Source of the DNA: a virus
Reading direction: 5' to 3' (one strand)
Length of the DNA stretch: 21,764 bases
IMG/VR virus record: IMGVR_UViG_3300009024_000082
Location: 1-21,764 of that record
Shown: piece after piece, positions 1 to 21,740 of the stretch
How the letters are laid out: each line of letters opens with the position of its first letter
How positions within the stretch are numbered: position 1 is the stretch's first letter
Position numbers and translations under genes: made by a program
The notes under the pieces: model-generated
What the model was told of the DNA's origin: nothing
Seen by the model: only the letters and a program-made list of their open reading frames with translations
The model's database searches: none

Positions 1-106
1 CGGCCTTGTCGTCTTCAAGACTAGTAACACTAATCTCCCAAGACTTAATCTTCCCAGTTGAGGCTATACCATATAGCTTAGGGAACTTTTTAATACTAAT
101 TTTCAT
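1..106 (-). CDS. Start of a probable ATP-dependent DNA ligase (partial, runs off window)
   Basis: Only the first 35 codons are present. The start codon is ATG at 104-106, five bases after an AAGGAG Shine-Dalgarno at about 112-117. The peptide contains FPKLYGIASTGKIKSWEISV. In phage ATP-dependent DNA ligases a short N-terminal segment of the type LY..tSTGkiq.WeI.V precedes the adenylation domain, and this matches from memory. A ligase to seal nicks would fit the replication genes upstream, but the catalytic KxDG motif lies outside the window, so the call rests on the N-terminus alone. A WGR-like or other small domain protein is the main alternative. The gene is separated from the operon above by about 300 bases of non-coding DNA with terminators and probably has its own promoter and leader. 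Confidence 0.5.
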   Translation of the reverse strand, partial: MKISIKKFPKLYGIASTGKIKSWEISVTSLEDDKA

Positions 107-267
107 CTTAACTCCTTAAACTAATTATAAGATAGGAAGGCTAGCTTCCTCTGCATGCATGCCCTGGCGACGGCGTGCACTGCAGTTCTCATCCGCCGGA
201 TCCGGTCATCCCGGGGACGAGCTCTTCAGTTAGGGATCACAAGCGTAGCTTGGGATAACAACTGAAG
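107..267 (-). promoter_or_regulatory. GC-rich structured leader of the probable ligase gene
   Basis: On the minus strand this leader folds into successive hairpins. Hairpin A (224-267) has an 8-bp outer stem, CTTCAGTT/AACTGAAG, an internal loop with a near-repeat (TATCCC/GATCCC), and an inner CAAGC/GCTTG stem closed by three bases. A 10-bp palindrome CCGGATCCGG sits at 196-205. Hairpin B (151-185) is about 12 bp with one bulge and one mismatch. Hairpin C (134-150) is AGGAAG/CTTCCT with a five-base loop. Next to the start codon, ATCTTA (128-133) can pair with TAAGAT, which includes the first bases of the ATG, and the CCTT of hairpin C can alternatively pair with AAGG of the Shine-Dalgarno. By hand count GC is about 65% over 151-230, far above the surroundings. 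It looks like a regulatory leader or structured RNA, but I do not recognise a known riboswitch, tRNA or ribozyme. Confidence 0.45.
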
Positions 268-270
268 AAT

Positions 271-300
271 ACTATATAAAAATACCTAATTGGTAATCAA
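271..300 (-). promoter_or_regulatory. Possible sigma70-type promoter for the leader and ligase gene
   Basis: On the minus strand TTGATT (295-300) and TATAGT (271-276) are separated by 18 bases. TATATA at 273-278, with a 16-base spacer, is an alternative -10. Either would start transcription at about 264-267, at the beginning of hairpin A. It lies just after the terminator hairpins, where a new promoter would be needed. The elements are only fair matches in AT-rich DNA. Confidence 0.3.
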
Positions 301-331
301 AAATATTGTAGCAGCTTGACTGCTACATATT
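297..331 (-). terminator. Rho-independent terminator, likely bidirectional
   Basis: TGTAGCAG (307-314) pairs perfectly with CTGCTACA (320-327) around a five-base loop. With one bulged T, the AT pairs at 302-306 and 327-331 extend the stem to about 12 bp. On the minus strand the stem is followed by a T run at about 299-303. On the plus strand it is followed by TTTT at 330-333. It closes the long minus-strand operon. Confidence 0.7.
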
Positions 332-348
332 TTCTAGACTTTCTAGAC
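331..348. repeat. Tandem 9-bp direct repeat
   Basis: TTTCTAGAC occurs twice back to back, at 331-339 and 340-348, between two terminator hairpins. Each copy contains the palindrome TCTAGA. No function is evident. Confidence 0.7.
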
Positions 349-352
349 CTTA

Positions 353-367
353 AGACTCTTTGAGTCT
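353..367 (-). terminator. Small hairpin between two terminators
   Basis: AGACTC (353-358) pairs with GAGTCT (362-367) around a three-base loop. It is one of three hairpins in about 120 bases after the end of the operon. There is no clear T run next to it, so it may be an RNA-end stabiliser or processing hairpin rather than a terminator. Confidence 0.3.
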
Positions 368-389
368 CTTAGTTCTTTAACGATCTTTA

Positions 390-417
390 AAATATATAAA
401 ATGGTTATTCAACCATT
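390..417 (-). terminator. Terminator hairpin overlapping the end of the operon's last gene
   Basis: AATGGTT (400-406) and AACCATT (411-417) form a 7-bp stem with a four-base loop. On the minus strand the stem spans the stop codon of the 409-870 gene and is followed by TTATATATTTT. The stem is AT-rich and so weak, which may explain the second, stronger terminator about 70 bases further on. Confidence 0.5.
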
Positions 418-870
418 GTTATGTTTATTGTATCGTTTCTTTCTGAATTCTCTTGCCCTAACTAGACGCTCCGGTTCAGGAGCTTTAAGGCACTCGTAGG
501 AGTAATCACTACTAGGATACTTTGTACTATCTATTACTTTCTTTAGCTTTTTAGATGTCATCTCAGAGACGTCACCATCAAGCCTGACTACTTTAATCCC
601 ATTCTCATTAGAGAAATTAACTTTTGTATTGTCTCTTTTAATAGAAGAAATATATCCATTGATATCTTTGTGAAAGTGTTCCACAAAATGATCATGTTGT
701 CTGCCATCATATTCAATAGCAACGCCCAATTCTTTAACAAATATATCGTACCTCTGTCCTAGACTAGGAATTACCTGTTCATATATAACAGTGTAAGAAG
801 GATAAATCTCTTCCATTAGTTCAAATAAATATCTCTGAGGAATAGAACCACGACCATCAGGCCTACTCAC
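409..870 (-). CDS. Vsr/DUF559-like PD-(D/E)XK endonuclease
   Basis: This 153-aa protein looks like a small nuclease of the Vsr/DUF559/DUF2726 branch of the restriction-endonuclease fold. It has a glutamate in the first helix (LFELMEE, about 16-21), RYDIFV with D42, then the hallmark IEYDGRQH at 52-59, followed by a basic stretch ending in NGIKVVRL. In this fold the D and the E-x-D/Q residues bind the metal that cleaves DNA. Possible roles are nicking at mismatches or phage-specific sites, or a free-standing homing-type enzyme; I cannot tell which. The start is GTG at 868-870 in a GTGA overlap with the upstream stop codon, so translation is probably coupled. It is the last gene of the operon and runs into a terminator. 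Confidence 0.65.
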   Translation of the reverse strand: MSRPDGRGSIPQRYLFELMEEIYPSYTVIYEQVIPSLGQRYDIFVKELGVAIEYDGRQHDHFVEHFHKDINGYISSIKRDNTKVNFSNENGIKVVRLDGDVSEMTSKKLKKVIDSTKYPSSDYSYECLKAPEPERLVRAREFRKKRYNKHNNG

Positions 871-5662: not shown

Positions 5663-5947
5663 TTATCCTTCTAAAAATTTCTTATTGTTTTTTGCAGACC
5701 TGATTATGTTCGCAGCCTTTTTGTCGACTAACTTTAAATCCAAGCCTGCTGATTCAGAAAGAACTTGTTGAAGACCTTCAAGCCTAGCCATTACAGCAGC
5801 ATGAATAGGGCCTTCCATGTCCCTCTTACTTTCTAAGTTCTCTAACCTTTCCTGAAGGTCTTCGAAGTGATACTTTACTCCGCTTGAGGTGCGACCGAAC
5901 TTTTCGATACACTTCTTTTCAAATAGCTCATCTTCAAGCTTTATCAA
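5663..5947 (-). CDS. Small coiled-coil protein of unknown function (94 aa)
   Basis: I do not recognise this protein. Residues about 25-45 (FEDLQERLENLESKRD) have heptad spacing suited to a short coiled coil. The C-terminus is basic (SAKNNKKFLEG). The start is TTG at 5945-5947 in a TTGA overlap with the polymerase stop codon. No ATG lies early enough to replace it, so translation probably depends on coupling to the polymerase gene. A role as a polymerase or nuclease accessory protein is suggested only by its place between the polymerase C-half and the Cas4-like nuclease. Confidence 0.6.
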   Translation of the reverse strand: MIKLEDELFEKKCIEKFGRTSSGVKYHFEDLQERLENLESKRDMEGPIHAAVMARLEGLQQVLSESAGLDLKLVDKKAANIIRSAKNNKKFLEG

Positions 5948-8448
5948 CTGCTTCTGCTCACATATATATCAGCATGCCTACCTAAGGATCTCAACATTGG
6001 AATATCTATACGCTTACTATTAAACTTCTTTATCCTAAAGACGGCATCTCCTATGTCCATGCATAGGGTCATCTTAAATCCACTATCTTCTTCTACCACA
6101 TATTCTGAGATAGCATTAAAGATAGTCTTAATTCTTACAGTACCAGGTGGCTCCTTGAAGTGAATATCTATTGACCTCATCTCCTTTTCAGCTTCTATCT
6201 GGTCTGAAACATTGTCTACCTCAGAAGTAATATCTCTAATTGCATCAGCAAAGTAGGACTTCTTACCTCCTTTAGACTCAGTACGTGTCATTATAAGTAC
6301 GTAGTTACCTTCACTAATACAATGTTTATACAAGGCATACGTAGTAGGAAACACAACAAAGCTGGTAGCTCCACCAACACTGTCTGCAACATCTATAAAA
6401 CACATCTCTTTCTTTTCTGCTTTGGTTACAGTTTTCTTGATCTTGTTTATTTGGCCAAGAATATATCCCTGTCCATCTCTATGTTCAAAGTCTCCTATAT
6501 TATAAAAGTCTTCTTCCACTATAGTAGCAACAATATCAAATGGGTTACCTGATATATGTATACCCATAAGAGTCTTTTCCATATCTAATATTCTTAGCAT
6601 AGGATACTCAGCTTGATTGGGATCACTAAACAATCTTTCCTCAGCTTCAAGCAACTCTTTTTTAACTGCCTTAATCTCCTTAGGATCTTCAGTAGCACCG
6701 AGTAACTTAATATAGGTAGCAAGGAAGTTCTCGAAGTTCTTAATCATAGATGATCTTTTATAACCAAAACAATCACAAGCACCACACTGAATGAGTGCCT
6801 CTATGATCTTTTTATTAATACCCTTAGCATGATAGGACTTAATTAAGAAGTCTCCAAAACTACTAGAGGGTGCTACAGATAAGATCTTTGTGATAGCTCT
6901 ACCACCAACACCTTTGATCTGATTAAAACCAAAAAGAATGTCACCATTCTTAGCAACAGTAAAGTCTTTAGAAGACCTATTGATGTCAGGTGGTAATACA
7001 GATATACCAATTCTCTTAGCGTCTTCTATATAAACAGACTGTCCCTCAATCGTATCCTCAAAAGCAATGACTGCAGCTAGGAATTCAGAAGGATAGTATG
7101 CCTTCAACCACGCGGTCTGATAACCAATCTCCGCATAGCATATAGCATGTGACTTATTAAAACAATACCTAGCAAACTCTTCCATCTCATCAAATAAGGC
7201 TGAGATCTTAAGTCTGTCTTGACCATTGGCAACAGCACCATCAACAAACCTTTCCTTCTGTGCCATCAGAAGGGCTCTATCTTTCTTACCAACAGCTTTT
7301 CTAAGAACATCAGCCTCTATGTCACTAAAGCCACACATGTCCTTAGAGAGGATCATAAGCTGTTCTTGGAATACTAGAAGACCATAGGTCTCTTTAAAGA
7401 TGTAATCATATTCAGGAATAGGGAACGTGGATGCCTGCTTACCATTCTTACGCATAACATAATCAACGTGAGCATTCATACCCATAGGGCCAGGTCTATA
7501 CAGAGATATAACAGCTGCCATCTCAGTAAGATTAGACGGCTTTGCAGCCGCAGCAAAATCTCTTAGGCCTTGTGAGCCTTCAATCTGAAAGACGCCATAG
7601 CTATTACCACTACCTATTATGTCGTAAGCTTCAGGATCATCAGGAAGTATATCGGCAACACTGATATCTTTTCCTTGAACTTTCTTGATAAGTTCAAATG
7701 TTTTACTAATGGCAGAAAGGTTCTTAAGTCCGAGTATGTCATACTTAATAAGTCCAATCTTCTCAAGGGTTTCTCCATCGAACTGAGTAACTGCGCCATC
7801 TTTCGAGGAGAATAATGGGATGGTATCAGTAAGTGGGTCAACGGATATGCACATCCCGCAGGCGTGAATACCAACGGTCTTGACTGTTCCTTCAAGATTT
7901 CTTGCATACTCTATAATCTCCCTAACTTGTTTGTCGGTGTCATATAACTTCTTAAGGTCAGAACTCATCTCAAGTGCCTGAGTAAAGTCCTTTAAATCAG
8001 GATCATCAGGTATCATCTTAGATATTTCATTAGACCTAAGGAAGTCTAGATCATATAGTCTAGCTATATCTTTCCATAAACCTTTCGGCTTAGGAAACAT
8101 AAAGGTACCGATAGATGCAACTCTATCTTTACCATACTTATCAACAAGATGCTGCTTAACTTCATCTCTTCTATCCTTTTCGAAGTCTAGATCTATATCC
8201 GGAAAGGAACCGCCAACAGTTGTTATCCTACCAGTAGGTTCATCATCAGTTATGCCTAGAAGGAATGCTATATTAGAATTGTTTGGATTCTTCTTAGCCT
8301 TTATTCCACTATCGAGCATAGCTAATAGATATTCATCGGTATCATGGAGCTCTAAATGATTAAGCTCAAAATTAATATCTCTTTCATGTAGTGCATACCA
8401 AGGGTTATCCTTAGCAGCCTCTACTTCTTGTCTCAATGTTCTACTCAT
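5944..8448 (-). CDS. dnaE: DNA polymerase III alpha subunit, C-terminal part (catalytic palm, fingers, OB)
   Basis: This 834-aa protein is the larger part of a split C-family replicative polymerase. FPDIDLDF (82-89) holds catalytic D84 and D86, and KYDILGLKNL holds the third aspartate, D237. Further matches are YRPGPMG, GLLVFQEQ and the fingers segment NKSHAICYAEIGYQTAWLKA. An OB-fold region with GYILGQINKIKK lies near residue 670. The PHP domain and the GRGS part of the palm are missing and are encoded at 12822-14141. Residues about 56-75 (NNSNIAFLLGITDDEPTG) look like a decayed copy of the GSLVAYxxxITxxDP segment that is intact in the other half. The first 50 residues have no DnaE counterpart I know and may be a docking segment. 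The start ATG overlaps the stop codon of the preceding gene. The two proteins presumably assemble into one polymerase. Confidence 0.93.
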   Translation of the reverse strand: MSRTLRQEVEAAKDNPWYALHERDINFELNHLELHDTDEYLLAMLDSGIKAKKNPNNSNIAFLLGITDDEPTGRITTVGGSFPDIDLDFEKDRRDEVKQHLVDKYGKDRVASIGTFMFPKPKGLWKDIARLYDLDFLRSNEISKMIPDDPDLKDFTQALEMSSDLKKLYDTDKQVREIIEYARNLEGTVKTVGIHACGMCISVDPLTDTIPLFSSKDGAVTQFDGETLEKIGLIKYDILGLKNLSAISKTFELIKKVQGKDISVADILPDDPEAYDIIGSGNSYGVFQIEGSQGLRDFAAAAKPSNLTEMAAVISLYRPGPMGMNAHVDYVMRKNGKQASTFPIPEYDYIFKETYGLLVFQEQLMILSKDMCGFSDIEADVLRKAVGKKDRALLMAQKERFVDGAVANGQDRLKISALFDEMEEFARYCFNKSHAICYAEIGYQTAWLKAYYPSEFLAAVIAFEDTIEGQSVYIEDAKRIGISVLPPDINRSSKDFTVAKNGDILFGFNQIKGVGGRAITKILSVAPSSSFGDFLIKSYHAKGINKKIIEALIQCGACDCFGYKRSSMIKNFENFLATYIKLLGATEDPKEIKAVKKELLEAEERLFSDPNQAEYPMLRILDMEKTLMGIHISGNPFDIVATIVEEDFYNIGDFEHRDGQGYILGQINKIKKTVTKAEKKEMCFIDVADSVGGATSFVVFPTTYALYKHCISEGNYVLIMTRTESKGGKKSYFADAIRDITSEVDNVSDQIEAEKEMRSIDIHFKEPPGTVRIKTIFNAISEYVVEEDSGFKMTLCMDIGDAVFRIKKFNSKRIDIPMLRSLGRHADIYVSRSS

Positions 8449-8942
8449 TAAATATCTACCTCATAGCAGTCGAAATTATCTTTTTCTGGATAAGTAACTA
8501 TGTCTTTAATAAGTCTGATAGAGGCAAACCTTCCATACAAAATATAAACCCCTGCCATAATCTTTAAGCTATCAACACTATCATACATCTTCTTAATCAT
8601 TCTACACGGTAGTCCATCAGCAGTACGCATCATAAGACTATCAAGACGATTATTCTTGCCATAATTTATAGCAGCCACTGCAGCCACCTGTATTATCGGT
8701 AGCATATTCATTCTACAAAACCTAGGGTGAGGCCAGTAAGTAGTACCGACCTCCTTAAGCTTTGTATATATGTGCAATAAGAAGAAACCTATATCCCTAT
8801 TGTCTTTATGGACTATGTATAAATCGTAATCATTAAGTTGTTGTATAGAGTCAAAATTATTCCTATAAGAATTAAAAGCAAATGCTTCACCTAGCCACTG
8901 CTTGTCAACCTTATTAATATTAACTTTACGAACAAATATCAT
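8448..8942 (-). CDS. Possible GNAT-like acyltransferase (second of two in the radical SAM island)
   Basis: This 164-aa protein is not securely recognised. Its order of elements suggests a GNAT fold: an opening strand FVRKV, a helix, strands YDLYIVHK and IGFFLLHIY, a long helix (about 85-97, IIQVAAVAAINYG), a strand SLMMRTA and a helix LPCRMIKKMYDS. The acetyl-CoA loop Q/RxxGxG/A is not clear, so the call stays tentative. GNAT enzymes transfer acyl groups from CoA to amines. It directly follows the SPASM radical SAM gene in an ATGA overlap, just as the other GNAT-like gene follows the first radical SAM gene. That repeated pairing suggests both act in one modification pathway. Confidence 0.4.
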   Translation of the reverse strand: MIFVRKVNINKVDKQWLGEAFAFNSYRNNFDSIQQLNDYDLYIVHKDNRDIGFFLLHIYTKLKEVGTTYWPHPRFCRMNMLPIIQVAAVAAINYGKNNRLDSLMMRTADGLPCRMIKKMYDSVDSLKIMAGVYILYGRFASIRLIKDIVTYPEKDNFDCYEVDI

Positions 8943-10408
8943 ATACTGCTCACGGTATCGTTAGGAAACTTCCTATTATGAAGAATCTCTAGTGTTAATT
9001 TAAGTGTACTCACGTCCTTAATTAGCTGAACCATCTCAACATTAGATCCTTGAACGTCATGACATCCACAGTTATCTTCTTGAGGCTTATAAGGTTCATT
9101 CATCAGTAGTGCCTTAACAAGCATAAGCATATCTTCAACCTTACACTCTATTTCAGATATAGCTTCAGCCTTAGTAAGACCTATCTTAGATGCCATCTGT
9201 CTATTAATTCTAGTAAGGCTAGTCATCTCCAAAGTATTCTCATACAGGTCAGCTAAGTCTTCACACCATAGAGATGAACAAAAATGAGCATCATGATGTA
9301 ATAGATTCTTAACAGAACACTGAAAACAATACTTCTTCTCACAACTACCACACTTAGGGTCGTAGTTAGGATTAAGCTTATAGATATTACCACGCTCTAT
9401 GTTGACAGCTTCAGTTATGAAGTTGCCCATAATATCTGCATCCATTTCTGCGTGAGCAGTAAAGTAACATGAGTAGATGCCACCATCTGGATTAACAGCT
9501 AGCATAGTATGTCCAGCACCACAGTTATGATTCTTTTTATTAACACCTTCCATACACTCTATCTCAACATTAGATGTCTCAATAGCATAGGCACACACAT
9601 CATTTATGACATCAGTAACCTCTTGGTATAGCTCAGTAGTCCATGGAGCATTGGCTTCAGTAGTAACCGGATGAATGATTATATTCTCTGGCCCATAGTC
9701 GACCATCTCATATAGGTCTTCCTTAAGGATGTCCCAATATTGAGGCATAACACTAACTCTGAATGATGAACACTTGAAGATCCTATAGTAGTTATCCTTC
9801 ATGTTCTGAATATTCTTTCTTATCAGAGTCATTAAATTATTATTCTTATCACCAGTAGTATGCCTAGACTTAACTCTATCAAAGCCATCTAGGCTAAGTA
9901 GAAATGTTATCTCTCTACCACTAGTATTTTCTTCTAACCATTTAAGCTTCTTATCATCCAGCAAAACTATGTTGGTACTAATATTAAACTCTATGAGTCC
10001 AGGATACTTATCTAATCCATATCTCATAAAATCTTTTATGGTATCCCATTCAAGTAGTGGCTCACCACCAAAGAAAGATAATACCACTGGCTTAGCATCT
10101 GCTGGTCTCTTCTGATGCTTGATCCAAGTAATTAGTTGATCAAAGTTTGTATAATTCCAAGGGACATCATCAGGTAGATCTTTATCTTCTACGCAGTAGT
10201 CACATCTGAAGTTACATTTCTTAGTCATAAGCAGGTTAACCATAACCAACTCATCGAACTTACCTTTAAACTCTTCTCTAGTACCTCTAGAGCCAAGGCC
10301 GGCACCTATTGGCCCAACCTCTCCCTTGAGGTGGTTAAGTCCTTCATCGAGGTTTAAATTAAGGGCTGGAATCATTTGAGGATTGACTGTCTTCATTCCA
10401 GTATCCAT
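8939..10408 (-). CDS. Radical SAM protein with SPASM domain
   Basis: From this start the product is 489 aa. I chose ATG at 10406-10408 because GGGAG lies four bases upstream; a TTG at 10442-10444 would add 12 residues. KKCNFRCDYC carries the CX3CX2C motif (C65, C69, C72) that binds the radical SAM 4Fe-4S cluster, and SFFGGEPL (111-118) is the SAM-binding GGE motif. C296-X12-G-X4-C314 followed by C353, C356, C361, C364 and later cysteines match the SPASM layout for auxiliary clusters. SPASM enzymes modify peptides or proteins, for example by thioether bonds, formylglycine formation or other crosslinks. About 50 residues precede the barrel, including IPALNLNL, which resembles IPAVNLSG at the N-terminus of the other radical SAM protein. 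The target may be the 76-aa protein at 12592-12822 (inference). Confidence 0.9.
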   Translation of the reverse strand: MDTGMKTVNPQMIPALNLNLDEGLNHLKGEVGPIGAGLGSRGTREEFKGKFDELVMVNLLMTKKCNFRCDYCVEDKDLPDDVPWNYTNFDQLITWIKHQKRPADAKPVVLSFFGGEPLLEWDTIKDFMRYGLDKYPGLIEFNISTNIVLLDDKKLKWLEENTSGREITFLLSLDGFDRVKSRHTTGDKNNNLMTLIRKNIQNMKDNYYRIFKCSSFRVSVMPQYWDILKEDLYEMVDYGPENIIIHPVTTEANAPWTTELYQEVTDVINDVCAYAIETSNVEIECMEGVNKKNHNCGAGHTMLAVNPDGGIYSCYFTAHAEMDADIMGNFITEAVNIERGNIYKLNPNYDPKCGSCEKKYCFQCSVKNLLHHDAHFCSSLWCEDLADLYENTLEMTSLTRINRQMASKIGLTKAEAISEIECKVEDMLMLVKALLMNEPYKPQEDNCGCHDVQGSNVEMVQLIKDVSTLKLTLEILHNRKFPNDTVSSI

Positions 10409-10430
10409 GTAGCTCCCGGGTTCGTATTGC

Positions 10431-10994
10431 TTAACAGTATTCAAATCTATTCTCTCTTACTTTTCCAAATTTATATAATTTATCAGGATTGATTATACGA
10501 TCATAGATCACAACCCAATCATCCTTATCTTCTTTAACCTTAATCGGCTCAAAGCCATACTCAATAAACTTACCATAAACAAAAGGTAGACTGGCCTCAA
10601 AGAAGCAATGAGTTCCACCATAGATATTAAACCACATACTTAAAGTAAATGTAGGTGCCACAGTAGACCTCTTTCCCTCTAGATATAATTCAGAGCCCCA
10701 GCACTTGCTAACGTACCCATTAGTATTATCATAAGTAGGTGTACTAATGTTATGTATAATAGAGCATGCATTAAGCGTACCATCTGAATCAAATATCACA
10801 TGGGAGTTATTGTATAGGCCTGTATTATAATTTTCTTCTAGTCGTTTATAAGTTGGTGGGTTTTGATACCCATGCTCTTTATAGAATTTCTTTAGGTAAG
10901 GATGAAAGTCTTTTAAATCAGACTCTCTAACCTTCCTATAGAACCACAGTTCATCACGAGCGACAAAGGAACCTTTCTCTATTAGGTTGTGCAT
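10431..10994 (-). CDS. Possible GNAT-like acyltransferase (first of two in the island)
   Basis: I place the start at ATG 10992-10994, with AGGA about ten bases upstream; the open frame extends to a TTG at 11054 deep inside the radical SAM gene. The 187-aa product begins after about 14 residues with LWFYRKVRESDLKDF, a common GNAT opening strand and helix. It ends with a helix-strand pair (LPFVYGKFIEYGFEPIKVK, then DWVVIYDR) of the kind that closes GNAT domains. The central part is divergent and the acetyl-CoA loop is not clear. Cysteines are scattered, and the protein ends in EYC. It overlaps the radical SAM gene before it by 41 bases and ends 22 bases before the next radical SAM gene. An unknown fold is the alternative. 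Confidence 0.45.
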   Translation of the reverse strand: MHNLIEKGSFVARDELWFYRKVRESDLKDFHPYLKKFYKEHGYQNPPTYKRLEENYNTGLYNNSHVIFDSDGTLNACSIIHNISTPTYDNTNGYVSKCWGSELYLEGKRSTVAPTFTLSMWFNIYGGTHCFFEASLPFVYGKFIEYGFEPIKVKEDKDDWVVIYDRIINPDKLYKFGKVRENRFEYC

Positions 10995-11964
10995 AGTACA
11001 TAGTCCTATTAATATTCTCTGCCTTTGCAATAGTAGCAAAGTTCTCCGTATCAAGAGGTACTGTTATACCAGCCTTATTGGCCATTGCTTCTAATATAAT
11101 GCATGCAGCATCTGTTGTTTCATTTAATTCATTTAAGATATCATCGTCTAGATTGTAATAAGCTGCTACGTGACAAGCACTTGAGAAACCATTTACATCT
11201 ACAGCTAATTGCTTTTTACTTCTGAAGTTACAGCAATTCATTTCATGTTGTTTAGTTGAAAACACTGCTTCATTAAGGCCTATGTCGTACTGACCTCCGC
11301 TTTTAATTGAAGCAAGATTAGCTTCCATGCACCAATAAAGAAACTTATTCCTAATATCTTCTGTCATAACATAGTTATTGTCACCATCAAACATTACAAT
11401 ATTAATATCAAACTTAGTGGCACCAGATATCTCAAAGATATCTTCAACCCTTTGTATAATAGAATAGTCAGGAGCCTTTCTTATGTCTAGAGTAGTACTA
11501 AATATTAACTTCTCTGAGCCTACCTTAGAGGCAAGCCACTTAATGTTATTAATAACCTTAGTGTACTCTTCAAATGATGACCACCTAGTAGGATCATTCT
11601 CATAGTTACCATCAAGACTTATATAGATTACATTAAATTGTTTCCAATATTTTTCATCTAGCTTATCTATATAAGTACCATTAGTTATAACCTCATAGTA
11701 CTTATCAGGATAAGAATCCATAACCTGCGCTATTAGTCTCCTATTAAGCAATGGCTCACCACCAAAGAACTTAATAATAGTAGGATCAGTTTCCTCTATG
11801 TGTCTAAACGCATCAGCTACATCCATTTTCTGTTCAGGAAAGTGCTTTTCATAGCAATAGTCACACTTCATGTTGCATCCCTTAGTGACCACAAGGGTAA
11901 GCTTTTCAACCTTACTAAAGCCACTTAGGTTAACAGCAGGTATACTATTTTTCTTTCCACTCAT
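10954..11964 (-). CDS. Radical SAM protein with partial SPASM (Twitch-like) end
   Basis: This 336-aa enzyme has the radical SAM signature GCNMKCDYC (C30, C34, C37) and KFFGGEPLL with the GGE motif at 68-70. Further strands follow the barrel pattern (EVITNGTYID, VIYISLDG). C245-X13-G259-X4-C264 matches the first half of the SPASM signature, but the CX2CX5CX3C half is absent. The auxiliary cluster, if any, is therefore a reduced Twitch-like site. The N-terminus NSIPAVNLSGF resembles the second radical SAM protein. Known relatives install crosslinks or other changes on peptides and proteins using a 5'-deoxyadenosyl radical. It overlaps the unknown helical gene upstream by 20 bases and the GNAT-like gene downstream by 41 bases. 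Confidence 0.9.
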   Translation of the reverse strand: MSGKKNSIPAVNLSGFSKVEKLTLVVTKGCNMKCDYCYEKHFPEQKMDVADAFRHIEETDPTIIKFFGGEPLLNRRLIAQVMDSYPDKYYEVITNGTYIDKLDEKYWKQFNVIYISLDGNYENDPTRWSSFEEYTKVINNIKWLASKVGSEKLIFSTTLDIRKAPDYSIIQRVEDIFEISGATKFDINIVMFDGDNNYVMTEDIRNKFLYWCMEANLASIKSGGQYDIGLNEAVFSTKQHEMNCCNFRSKKQLAVDVNGFSSACHVAAYYNLDDDILNELNETTDAACIILEAMANKAGITVPLDTENFATIAKAENINRTMYYAQPNRERFLCRS

Positions 11965-12601
11965 CAGCTAAACCTTTAATATTATTGAGATATGAATCAT
12001 TCATAGCAACGATTTCTCTAAACTTTAATTCAGAATTTAAGAAGTAAGAGTACAATATATCAGACAAATGATACTCAGAAGAGTATCTAGACCATACACT
12101 ATAGGACTCATCCTTAATCTTATTCGTACTTGCACTAAACTTGGTAGCAGTATCTATAGCAGCACTCTTCTCAAAGAAGACTAATGCTTTCTTAACACCA
12201 TCAAAGTAATCAGAGAAGCCTTCACCTTGCATAAGCTTTTCATATACACCTTTGCTATCACCTCTAACAAACGGTATGTAAGAGAAGCCTATGGTCTCTA
12301 GTACTATTGATACTATCGGAGCATCTAAGCCTTCAATACTATCAAGTAAGGTTGTCCTACATGTATTCATCATCTCTGCATCAACCTTAGACCTAGAAAA
12401 GAAAACTATCTCTCTATAGTGAGACATAGCCTGACATAGATTAAAGATCTGAGAAGGAAGTACCTTCTTACTCTTAGATATTGTAATCAATATACCTTTA
12501 ATAATCTTTGTAGCAGATTCAACACTCTCTATTCCAAGATTCATAGCTTCTTCTCTAACTTTTAAAAAGCCATCGAGTATCTTCTTGTCTTCTATCCGCA
12601 T
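11945..12601 (-). CDS. Helical protein of unknown function in the radical SAM island (218 aa)
   Basis: I do not recognise this protein. It reads as mostly helical, with several amphipathic segments (for example 34-60 and 135-160) and no signal peptide or cysteine cluster. Tyrosine and serine are frequent in the C-terminal third (SVWSRYSSEYHLSDILYSYF). Its ATG overlaps the last codons of the 76-aa Gly-rich protein, whose final TGC-GGA-TAG is read in another frame here, so the two genes are translationally coupled. It ends inside the start of the first radical SAM gene. This position between candidate substrate and enzyme would suit a carrier, recognition or structural partner, but nothing in the sequence proves it. 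Confidence 0.7.
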   Translation of the reverse strand: MRIEDKKILDGFLKVREEAMNLGIESVESATKIIKGILITISKSKKVLPSQIFNLCQAMSHYREIVFFSRSKVDAEMMNTCRTTLLDSIEGLDAPIVSIVLETIGFSYIPFVRGDSKGVYEKLMQGEGFSDYFDGVKKALVFFEKSAAIDTATKFSASTNKIKDESYSVWSRYSSEYHLSDILYSYFLNSELKFREIVAMNDSYLNNIKGLADEWKEK

Positions 12602-12822
12602 GTAGTAGTTCCTCCGCCACCCGATGAGTCAGTATACTCATGAGTATGACCTATAAGTAGTTCGATTTGATCTCTAAGTTCATTAATATCCTTAGCTTTT
12701 ATCTTATCTTTAGTAGGCAAGATTCTTTTACCCTGAAAAGGGCCACCTGTTGTAGCTCCATTAATCCAAAAATTAATTCGTGCTGTAGCCTCATTTGGAT
12801 CTGACGGGAAAGTAGTTGGCAT
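12592..12822 (-). CDS. 76-aa protein with HxH motif and Gly-rich tail ending in TTTCG; candidate radical SAM substrate
   Basis: This short protein has three parts: an N-terminal region with FPSDPNEATARINFW, a helix KDINELRDQIELLIG (44-58), and a C-terminus GHTHEYTDSS-GGGG-TTTCG. Helix-GHTHxYTD segments occur near the ends of phage tail and fibre proteins, where HxH motifs can bind metal, so it may be or mimic a virion tip protein. It is nevertheless encoded far from any tail gene. It sits directly before a radical SAM/GNAT cluster and ends in a flexible Gly run with a penultimate cysteine (C75). That layout resembles precursor peptides modified at the C-terminus by SPASM enzymes. Substrate status is inference. 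It starts in a TAATG overlap with the polymerase N-half and has AAGGAA upstream. Confidence 0.75.
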   Translation of the reverse strand: MPTTFPSDPNEATARINFWINGATTGGPFQGKRILPTKDKIKAKDINELRDQIELLIGHTHEYTDSSGGGGTTTCG

Positions 12823-14141
12823 TATTTGGTTTCCTTATATTTATCTATTGAAAATTCTTCAAATTCTATTTGCGGTCTTTTCGCTCTTCCACGATTTAAA
12901 AATCTTTCGAATAATAAATCATGCTCAATAGGATCTATACCAGTTATCTTCATACAATAAGCTACTAAAGATCCAGCTGCAGAGCCGCGTCCGCCGCCAA
13001 CCATTATACCATTATCTTTAGCCCATTGTGTATACTCAGCTACTACATGAAAGTAATCAGAGAACTCCATCTTACGAATAACTTCTAGCTCATGCCTAAG
13101 TCTCTCATGGTACTTTGATATTAGTGCAACATCAGTAATCTTACGATCAGAAAGATACTTAGAGAGATATTCATAAGACTCTGCAGCTAAAGCCTCATCA
13201 GGGTTCTCTACAATCTCAGGTATGATCTTAAGACCATCAATAAAGTCAACATTACACATGTCAGCTATATCATTAGTAGCATTCATAGCCTGTTCAAACA
13301 TGGGTAGGAAATCTTCACCATGATACTGTAGATAATGTCGCTTAAGATCCTCATAGGACTTAATGTAGTACTGTTCTTTCTCATAGTACATACCAGAGTC
13401 ATCCTGATCTGTATCAGCATTGACCTTGATCTTACTTATGTTTCCAGTATTAATACTTACTAATGTTCTATGATAGTCCCACTGATCCTTCTCAACATAG
13501 TGAGAGTCAGCAGTTATGACAAGCTTAATGTCATGCTTCTTAGCCATAGAGATCAAGAAGTTATTAGCTTCAGTCTGAAGATATACACCGTCTTCACTTA
13601 ACCCAGTATGGGTAAGCTCTAAGTAATACCTGTCTCCAAGTATTTGTTTCATCTCAAGTATATGGTCTTCAGCTTCTTCAGATCTATTCTCTAAGAATAA
13701 CTGAGATGGTCTACCACCAAGGCATGCACTAGTAACAATTAAACCTTCGCCCCATTGAGCTAACCTAGTTGTATCTATTCTAGGCTTATAATATTTACCT
13801 TCTAGCCACGACCAACTTGTTAGGCGCATAAGATTCTTATGACCCTCCTTGTTCATAGCCACGACTATTAGATGATAGTAAGGTTTTTCACCATCAACTT
13901 TTTCTTTTACTGTAGCACTACCAGGAGCCATATACATTTCATTGCCGAAGATTGGTTTAATGCCATGCTTCTTACAAGATTTATTTAACTCATACCAACC
14001 AAAGCAATTACCATGATCAGTTAAAGCCACTCCTTTCATACCCAGCATCTTACATCTTTCAACCATCTTATCTATCTTAGAAAAACCATCTAATACAGAA
14101 TAGACACTATGCTGATGTAAACCAGTGTACGTTTGAGACAA
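12822..14141 (-). CDS. dnaE: DNA polymerase III alpha subunit, N-terminal part (PHP domain and start of palm)
   Basis: This 439-aa protein is the N-terminal part of a split C-family polymerase. The PHP domain appears complete: H9 and H11 (LHQHS), D42 and H43 (LTDHG), E68, H90, C140 (TSACLGG), D212 and H214 (ADSHYV). An intact set suggests working 3'-5' proofreading inside the alpha subunit. The palm begins with GGGRGSAAGSLVAY (382-395), part of the dNTP-binding site, and continues to LLFERFLN. The protein then ends in RPQIEFEEF (422-430), where a whole DnaE would have PDxDxDF: both catalytic aspartates are replaced, and the real motif is in the 5944-8448 gene. The start codon is TTG at 14139-14141, seven bases after AAGGAT. 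It needs its partner for DNA synthesis. Confidence 0.93.
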   Translation of the reverse strand: MSQTYTGLHQHSVYSVLDGFSKIDKMVERCKMLGMKGVALTDHGNCFGWYELNKSCKKHGIKPIFGNEMYMAPGSATVKEKVDGEKPYYHLIVVAMNKEGHKNLMRLTSWSWLEGKYYKPRIDTTRLAQWGEGLIVTSACLGGRPSQLFLENRSEEAEDHILEMKQILGDRYYLELTHTGLSEDGVYLQTEANNFLISMAKKHDIKLVITADSHYVEKDQWDYHRTLVSINTGNISKIKVNADTDQDDSGMYYEKEQYYIKSYEDLKRHYLQYHGEDFLPMFEQAMNATNDIADMCNVDFIDGLKIIPEIVENPDEALAAESYEYLSKYLSDRKITDVALISKYHERLRHELEVIRKMEFSDYFHVVAEYTQWAKDNGIMVGGGRGSAAGSLVAYCMKITGIDPIEHDLLFERFLNRGRAKRPQIEFEEFSIDKYKETK

Positions 14142-20189: not shown

Positions 20190-21740
20190 TTAAAATGGTA
20201 ATCCTTCAGCAAAGTCTGCAAAAATATCTACAGCCTCTGCCATATTATTATTAGGTTGTGCCCTATCAGTTCTATTTACGTAGTCTGGATAGAAGTCATA
20301 AGTTAAGCCACGTCTTATCTGACCACCAGGCTTAAACATTACTATGCTAGGAGTGTTCCTTAGCCTACTATGCCTAAATGTCTCACGTCTTTTCTGCTTA
20401 GCCGCATGGGGCGAGGGAAGCTTATGGGTAAGTATGCAACTATTATCCATACTATTTCTTATAAATTGGTACTGATCCCTGTTTATGGATTTAACCCACT
20501 CAAGAATTCCACGCTCTCTTGGGTCAAGATTGTGAAGCCTCTTACCTTCAAGCATCTTCTTTATCTCAAGCTTTTTATTAGAACCTATAGATAACTTAGG
20601 CGTGTCACCAGACGTATCTAAAATGATGCCGGCAATCTTCTTCTTATCACGAGGCCCCATAATGTGAGTCTTATCATAGTTGAGATAGAAACTAGAACCA
20701 TTAACTATTCTTTCCAGCTCCAATACATAATCCATATTCAATACAAAACTACCATCCTCATTGTAACCTTCCATAGAGGAGATACAGATATCATCTGCAT
20801 ACCTCGTATACTTTATGTTACCACTAAGATATTTCTTAACAGAAAGATCCATAGGAGCAAATATAATATTAGATACAACAGGTGAATAGTTAGCACCAGT
20901 AGGTAGTAAACCATTATGAGTATAGTAGTTCATAATATTTATGAAACTAAGATTGATAATGTTGAATAGATTTCGAAGCACTTGAAAGTGGTTCGGATTA
21001 GTAAAAGTTTCGGGGGCAAAGTCCATACCAGTACGTATCTTAAAGCTTGCGATAAGTGACTTAAGATATAGATCATTGGTAATGATAGTAGACAATGATA
21101 TGCTGTCATAGAACTTACTTATGTCTACACTAATAGCAGACTTACATCCTAGATGTTCTCTGGCATGCTCAACATAAGACTTACCTCTAACAAACCCAGT
21201 TACATTATTCGCTAATGAATCAGGTAGGCCTGGATCAATATAAAAGTTATAATAAACTTTATACATATCATCAGCAAAAGATATAAGTTCATCTTTAATA
21301 GTTTCTCTTAGCTCTACAGGAAACTTTCTATTTATAACAGATATTCTTCTATCCTTAACTTTAGCATGCCTAAAGATACATGTGTTTGATAGGTTGCCAT
21401 AAGGAGCAGCAAACATATTCATGTCTTCCGCAAAAGACATTAGCCAATCATCATTACATAAGGTAGCATCGAAGCTATTGCTACAGAGTCTATTAATATC
21501 TCCATAATCACAATGATGTGAAACTCTTTCCTTGACCCTATCATGAGCCTCTGCACCTAGCTCTCTGTAGATATCAATATTATCTAGCATAAATGTATTA
21601 ACATTTTCAGGAAGCTTAGACTCTTCAGCAAATGCAATAGCATGAGCAGTAGACTCCATCTTCTTAAGGCGTCCGGTATAGACGCCCAGTATACTGTTAT
21701 AGTCTTTAACTAAAGACATAAAACTACGTTTACCAATCAT
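20190..21740 (-). CDS. Reverse transcriptase, retron/group II-like
   Basis: This 516-aa protein has the RT motifs in order. RISVINRK precedes VTGFVRGKSYVEHA (180-193), as in retron and group II enzymes. SVDISKFYDSI carries the first catalytic aspartate (D206). LLPTGANYSPVVSNIIF (278-294) is the primer/template-grip motif, and YTRYADDICIS carries YADD (314-317). IAGIILDTSGDTPKLS and the thumb-like ILEWVKSINRDQYQFI follow. About 120 residues precede the core, and an extended C-terminus has the basic run AAKQKRRETFRHSRLR (446-461). There is no maturase or endonuclease domain and no obvious retron effector. The ATG follows AAGGA at five bases. The region upstream, where a retron RNA would lie, is cut off by the window end. 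Abi/UG-type phage-defence RTs and diversity-generating RTs are alternatives. Confidence 0.88.
   Translation of the reverse strand: MIGKRSFMSLVKDYNSILGVYTGRLKKMESTAHAIAFAEESKLPENVNTFMLDNIDIYRELGAEAHDRVKERVSHHCDYGDINRLCSNSFDATLCNDDWLMSFAEDMNMFAAPYGNLSNTCIFRHAKVKDRRISVINRKFPVELRETIKDELISFADDMYKVYYNFYIDPGLPDSLANNVTGFVRGKSYVEHAREHLGCKSAISVDISKFYDSISLSTIITNDLYLKSLIASFKIRTGMDFAPETFTNPNHFQVLRNLFNIINLSFINIMNYYTHNGLLPTGANYSPVVSNIIFAPMDLSVKKYLSGNIKYTRYADDICISSMEGYNEDGSFVLNMDYVLELERIVNGSSFYLNYDKTHIMGPRDKKKIAGIILDTSGDTPKLSIGSNKKLEIKKMLEGKRLHNLDPRERGILEWVKSINRDQYQFIRNSMDNSCILTHKLPSPHAAKQKRRETFRHSRLRNTPSIVMFKPGGQIRRGLTYDFYPDYVNRTDRAQPNNNMAEAVDIFADFAEGLPF

Follow-up and report, generated by a model that had tools for sequence, protein, structure and literature searches.

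The window, by which we mean the whole stretch of DNA analysed, is a virus record of 21,764 bases whose minus strand holds all substantial genes. It represents a compact phage sequence with a single gap of at least 150 nt between coding-strand ORFs of at least 60 aa (positions 107–408; the gap listing runs 1–408, the window end cutting the ligase gene). On the minus strand, this 302-nt gap extends from the stop codon of a homing-endonuclease-like gene to the Shine-Dalgarno sequence of a ligase gene. The ligase ATG is located at 106, with 106 bases of the gene (1–106, minus strand) inside the window. The complete gene is present in L002 (5526–6656), an IMG/VR contig that is 99.95% identical to the window over 5,631 bases, and this copy (phrog_114, E 1e-74) confirms the originally predicted ligase as an ATP-dependent DNA ligase. 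The upstream gene (409–870, minus strand) carries an EYDGxQH motif and matches phrog_559 (3e-10) and phrog_9084 (3e-9). Three further distinct genomes, L003, L004 and L007, share the same gene order, with a homing-endonuclease-like gene at the equivalent place and gaps before the ligase of 396, 373 and 504 nt, respectively. As in the window, no gap other than the pre-ligase one reaches 150 nt in L003, L004 and L007:1–13738.

Several other genes of this phage lineage deserve mention. The window encodes a reverse transcriptase (20190–21740), for which the nearest NCBIfam models are retron St85-type reverse transcriptases, below cut-off. A 49% identical homologue is found in the L007 phage (L213:3894–4853); thus, the reverse transcriptase seems to be a regular gene of the lineage. 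At 8448–12822, genes for two radical SAM proteins (PapB-like SPASM, below cut-offs) and for two small proteins lie beside a 76-aa ORF that ends in SSGGGGTTTCG; the L007 phage has a homologue of this small ORF. This cluster could be involved in peptide modification on a virion protein. In L007 (1147–3612), an intein-like insert splits a radical SAM gene directly after the CxxxCxxC motif, and the insert-bearing gene weakly matches an intein-containing radical SAM family. DNA polymerase III alpha is distributed over two ORFs about 4 kb apart (window 12822–14141 and 5944–8448), and its second half is likewise a separate ORF in L007.

The gap is occupied by an array of hairpins, described here in the direction of the ligase gene (minus strand throughout). 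A small hairpin lies across the point where the upstream nuclease-like gene stops (401–416). It is followed by the hairpin AGACTC-AAA-GAGTCT (353–367; the same inverted repeat is also listed on the plus strand), and by TCTAGA-AAG-TCTAGA (333–347), in which each arm is palindromic. A terminator scan identified a strong intrinsic-terminator-like hairpin with a T tail at 307–327, which probably ends the upstream operon. Next is an AT-rich dyad, TACC-AATTA-GGTA, recognized by eye and followed by TTTTTATATA (275–298). The GC-rich portion begins with hairpin 1 (223–267), which has a TAC loop and the predicted near-symmetrical internal loop, TATCCC (257–252) opposite GATCCC (238–233). Hairpin 2 (188–221) contains the palindromes CCCGGG and GGATCC, with GAGCTC at its 5′ edge, while hairpin 3 (151–185) contains CTGCAG, GTGCAC, GCATGC, ATGCAT and a second GCATGC. 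The array ends with a closing hairpin, AGGAAG-CTAGC-CTTCCT (134–150), and the sequence AUCUUA (128–133), which is better conserved than any other part of the leader, upstream of the ligase Shine-Dalgarno sequence AAGGAG (112–117). The original prediction placed a structured, GC-rich block at 107–267. The structure and the composition (GC 0.52, compared to 0.37 for the window) hold, but the array is on the minus strand, runs from the upstream stop codon (about 416), and is split by the terminator at 327–307.

The strong hairpins predicted within about 160 bases are borne out by folding statistics. A 201-nt piece covering 107–267 folds on the minus strand with −66.5 kcal/mol (z −3.8), a value matched by 1 of 200 shuffles, and the whole gap, 107–408, reaches a z of −7.3 (40 shuffles). 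The structure of the leader is real at the sequence level. Its strand-specificity is not clear: the opposite strand of the 201-nt piece folds nearly as well (z −3.95), and sense and antisense z values (40 shuffles each) are −4.1 and −3.7 for 107–267, with −6.2 antisense for the whole gap. Among the relatives, the sense values are −9.2 (L003), −6.8 (L004) and −7.1 (L007), compared to −7.1, −7.8 and −6.6 on the antisense strand, such that L004 folds better antisense. GU pairs account for 5.8–7.9% of the pairs in the ligase leaders in the sense direction and 2.2–6.3% antisense, the two strands of L007 being about equal; the sense value is close to that of 12 phage tRNAs (8.2%). Predicted sense-strand folds of L003 and L004 have the loops GUGA, UCCG and GGAA and a fourth loop, GAAA in L003 and GGAA in L004. 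When only uninterrupted hairpins are counted, GNRA or UNCG tetraloops make up 1/4 (L003) and 2/7 (L004) of the sense tetraloops and 0/6 in each antisense strand, while the window and L007 leaders have none on either strand; the loop evidence is therefore confined to two close relatives. From these pairing and loop features, the sense strand is probably the one that is read in the ligase leaders.

The array is unusually rich in six-base palindromes, most of which are held in predicted stems. The window gap contains 19 (5.6 expected), L003 20 (8.2 expected) and L004 20 (7.4 expected), counts that were reached in 0 of 2000 dinucleotide shuffles of each leader. Their density is 50–68 per kb in the two parts of the window gap, L003 and L004, compared to 17–20.5 per kb in four coding stretches and 5–14 in six phage tRNA arrays. 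Thus, palindromes are three to four times denser in these three leaders than in coding DNA. L007 and L002:12002–12640 both have 28 per kb, and L007 is accordingly only weakly enriched overall. Palindromes with at least four G+C occur at 0–50 per kb in the window, L003 and L004 (none in window 268–408, 50 in 107–267), 8 in L007, 6 in L002:12002–12640, 0.6–2.4 in coding DNA and 0–2.1 in tRNA arrays. The palindromes themselves differ between relatives: CCCGGG, GGATCC, CTGCAG, GTGCAC and GCATGC in the window, and GAATTC, AGATCT, GGTACC, GGGCCC and CCATGG in L003. One possibility is that the excess reflects symmetric pairing between identical molecules. In PMC12286853, palindromes of GOLLD, ROOL and OLE are described as covarying in symmetric kissing loops.

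All comparative statements are limited to the four distinct ligase leaders that were found (window, L003, L004 and L007). The N-termini of the L003, L004 and L007 ligases are 55–57% identical to that of the window lineage, with no difference between L003 and L004 in this part (100% identity). At the nucleotide level, BLASTN with short words did not match the window gap to the L003, L004 or L007 leaders at E up to 5, and the sole close copy of the window gap is identical over 302/302 nt. The L003 and L004 leaders can be aligned, with 339 of 373 columns identical (91%), 34 substitutions and a 21-nt deletion. Since 4.35 kb of mostly coding DNA from the same pair is 87.5% identical, the gap is under constraint and does not drift freely. 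Paired columns take 15 of the 34 substitutions in the L003 fold (P 0.025) and 12 in the L004 fold (P 0.0005). The substitutions break 8 pairs in each fold, compared to means of 16.3 and 16.7 when placed at random (2000 trials, minimum 8 broken pairs). Compensated changes are found in 2 of 112 pairs of the joint fold. This substitution pattern gives moderate support for a conserved structure. Searches for more leaders with a primase profile (genome collection), a nuclease-like profile (loci examined) and two narrower patterns returned no relative, no further leader-bearing genome and known contigs only, respectively. In L135 and L136, a ribonucleotide-reductase-like gene follows the nuclease-like gene, as judged from the ORFs. 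The records of the distant primase relatives L008–L011 contain no ligase match and no similar gap, and blastn against a phage collection gave one weak match to L007 and none to L002.

In all four genomes, the last hairpin is followed by AUCUUA just before the ligase Shine-Dalgarno sequence. The closing hairpin is AGGAAG-CUAGC-CUUCCU in the window, AGACC-CUUGC-GGUCU in L003 and L004, and AGAUC-UUUAC-GAUCU in L007. The element also recurs within the arrays. In L007, 12362 and 12533 carry the same 26 nt (26/26, E 2e-7). In L002, far from the ligase, a stretch of 25 nt is repeated at 12291 and 12583 (24/25, E 7e-5), and a variant is located at 12140. At the internal boundary in L003 and L004 there is a longer version, GAUAAC-AUCC-GUUAUC-UAUCUA. 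Where one module gives way to the next, a small AT-rich dyad and a T-rich stretch come after the element. This arrangement was seen by eye and a pattern was derived from it; the strict pattern finds 6 sites in arrays, from which it was built, and 1 elsewhere, and misses the window copy of the dyad (275–298), the counterpart of the module-opening dyad in the relatives. Read antisense, the dyad may resemble the T7 promoter. A promoter role was rejected, as its spacing varies as in a hairpin.

The covariation that the original prediction called for was found for the closing hairpin. Across seven instances of the element (six distinct), all five pairs are formed in every distinct row (30/30 cells) and both sides have changed in 3 of 5 pairs; in 500 shuffles, the covariation score was never reached, and as many pairs changed on both sides were seen in 14. 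The instances were first spotted by eye or by hairpin search, and their pairing is therefore partly selected. A covariance model was built from seven instances, window excluded, and searched against 78,394 bases with filters off. The window copy (128–150) was the best untrained match (15.0 bits, E 0.25, tied with the L002 copy of the same leader) and sits where it should be relative to the Shine-Dalgarno sequence, just upstream of it; this E-value alone is not significant, and the same model gave matches of up to 17.9 bits in 37 other loci (327 kb). The weight of the window match is its position. In an IMG/VR pattern scan for the closing hairpin, most of the paired-stem matches outside the leader genomes, among the matches listed, were AGGATATAACAGAGGCTTACCCTCTATCTT, a conserved element of phage tRNA arrays in many IMG/VR contigs (L022, L024, L029, L103 and others), which lies opposite in strand to the tRNAs and has no Rfam name in the scanned loci. 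AGGATATAACAGAGGCTTACCCTCTATCTT was treated as unrelated to the closing element, because the search pattern itself imposes the likeness.

Masking of the ligase start and a promoter at the first hairpin, both parts of the original prediction, were not supported. In the window, AUCUUA (133–128) is able to pair with UAAGAU over the ligase start codon, but this pairing is absent from the relatives. The start region has a mean unpaired probability of 0.61, compared to 0.48 (sd 0.08) at the starts of 25 further window genes, and values of 0.47–0.48 were obtained for L003, L004 and L007; the start is not less accessible than those of other genes. The sigma-70-like match TTGATT-18-TATAGT (300–271), which overlaps the AT-rich dyad, is no better than chance (one found, 3.8 in shuffles). 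Terminator-like sites are in excess, with 5 in positions 1–1200 compared to 0.5 in shuffles. The hairpin at 327–307 has the GC-rich stem and T run of an intrinsic terminator, which the closing hairpin (150–134) does not. The only copy of the closing element scored as a terminator is a terminator-like match at L003:4083–4101. As for a leader peptide, the sense strand offers only a 23-aa ORF.

A second structured region is found in L002. A 1.1-kb non-coding region (11875–13011), flanked by a long tail-like gene and by a ribonucleotide reductase gene, starts with a tRNA-Thr and contains three copies of the closing element and a locally reversed GC skew; the change of sign is confined to this kilobase. 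Within it, 12002–12620 folds better antisense (−205 vs −167 kcal/mol), with a GU share of 7 and 11% antisense compared to 4%. The direction of the closing element is the same as in the ligase leaders, despite the reversed fold preference. Judging from these sequence features, the region may be read from the other strand and is possibly a larger non-coding RNA.

The array has the appearance of a structured non-coding RNA unlike any described so far. Our tentative reading, at somewhat less than even confidence, is that structured RNA modules are arrayed on the sense strand with hairpin-AUCUUA marking off each one, and that the ligase is translated from what follows. The modules, one in the window and two or more in the relatives, would consist of GC-rich hairpins transcribed in the ligase direction, each opening with the small AT-rich dyad and ending with the hairpin and AUCUUA. 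We infer that the latter marks the 3′ end of each module through processing or partial termination. A stable small RNA, with whatever target it may have, would be released, and the 5′ end of the remaining ligase message would be short and unstructured. A more specific version is improbable: modules built largely of self-complementary segments, in which identical molecules pair through palindrome-rich stems and loops to form symmetric oligomers, relatives exchange one palindrome for another without losing self-complementarity, and tandem modules are cut apart at hairpin-AUCUUA.

A DNA-level element is an unlikely alternative to this modular RNA. Here the inverted repeats would act in double- or single-stranded DNA, as a replication start or as a site of recombination or protein binding, and RNA folding would be a by-product. 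It would account for the good folding of both strands, for GU pairs below shuffled values, and for the enriched loopless 6-bp palindromes, which RNA folding does not require. However, the GU share equals that of phage tRNAs, and the only shared candidate binding sequence, hairpin-AUCUUA, sits just before the Shine-Dalgarno sequence in all four genomes. The GC skew also does not change sign across the ligase leader, and there is thus no sign of a bidirectional origin, which argues against a replication origin. A cis-acting ligase leader (riboswitch, protein-binding leader or attenuator) that controls translation or read-through is rather more doubtful. Its location directly upstream of the ligase in 4/4 genomes, the closing hairpin and AUCUUA adjoining the Shine-Dalgarno sequence, and the L003 terminator-like match would agree with such a role, but the start sites are as accessible as others, and there is neither a conserved core nor an Rfam match. 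Copies of the same element are also present at module boundaries and at sites without a start codon (L007, and L002 far from the ligase); the element is therefore not a ligase translation switch.

Two further explanations were considered. Selfish GC-rich palindromic insertions, similar to the yeast mitochondrial GC clusters and perhaps associated with the homing-endonuclease-like neighbour, would explain GC-rich hairpins in AT-rich DNA, their fast turnover and the adjacent gene. We consider this improbable, since the array bodies are not repeated elsewhere in the examined genomes, the L003 and L004 leaders are constrained, and the array occupies the same place in four genomes. An ordinary intergenic spacer with a terminator, a promoter and chance hairpins is the least probable; the strong terminator at 327–307 and the weak promoter-like match fit it, whereas the folding and palindrome statistics and the recurring closing element do not. 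If the modular array is a functional RNA, it would represent an undescribed class in an environmental phage lineage, unusual for a near-complete sequence turnover with retained architecture and for 6-bp palindromes in three- to four-fold excess. Dense palindromes together with hairpin-AUCUUA would then provide a simple handle for finding more members.

In agreement with the original prediction that the leader matches no known RNA, no Rfam match was obtained at the gathering score in the window and 9 loci, except for the tRNA in L002; a permissive threshold added four chance-level matches at E up to 10. We found no description of such a hairpin array in the literature searched. A riboswitch or protein-binding autoregulatory leader is expected to keep a conserved core. 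The leader matches none of the Rfam riboswitch aptamer models and has no sequence core across relatives. Among the types originally proposed, a stable phage RNA fits best, while a riboswitch or protein-binding autoregulatory leader is not supported, there being no alignable core. Rfam cis-regulatory leaders (riboswitches and ribosomal-protein leaders) are likewise structured and directly precede a gene, but the array lacks a conserved core and its closing element is also found away from gene starts. Intrinsic terminators in series also form hairpins at operon boundaries, and one clear terminator is present here; however, the recurring hairpin ends in AUCUUA instead of a T run. The put-type antiterminator RNA of HK022 is a two-hairpin RNA acting on RNA polymerase. 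Mitochondrial GC clusters and hairpin elements, the subject of PMC4478555 among others, are similarly GC-rich palindromic hairpins in AT-rich intergenic DNA. Mobile GC clusters have several similar copies per genome, whereas here only the 25–26 nt closing element repeats, and within arrays; the array as a whole is not repeated in the genome, and its position is conserved and under constraint.

The GOLLD and ROOL RNAs form homo-oligomeric cages through kissing loops and A-minor contacts. Their Rfam covariance models have no match in the window and 9 loci. The array resembles them as a candidate structured non-coding RNA in phage, and the structured gap in L002 directly follows a tRNA-Thr; GOLLD and ROOL are often near tRNA islands, according to PMC12286853. 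It differs in that the ligase array is much shorter (302–504 nt) and modular, precedes a DNA-metabolism gene, and has its palindromes mostly in stems. If it is a functional RNA, the array raises the question of whether phage RNAs beyond GOLLD and ROOL self-assemble.
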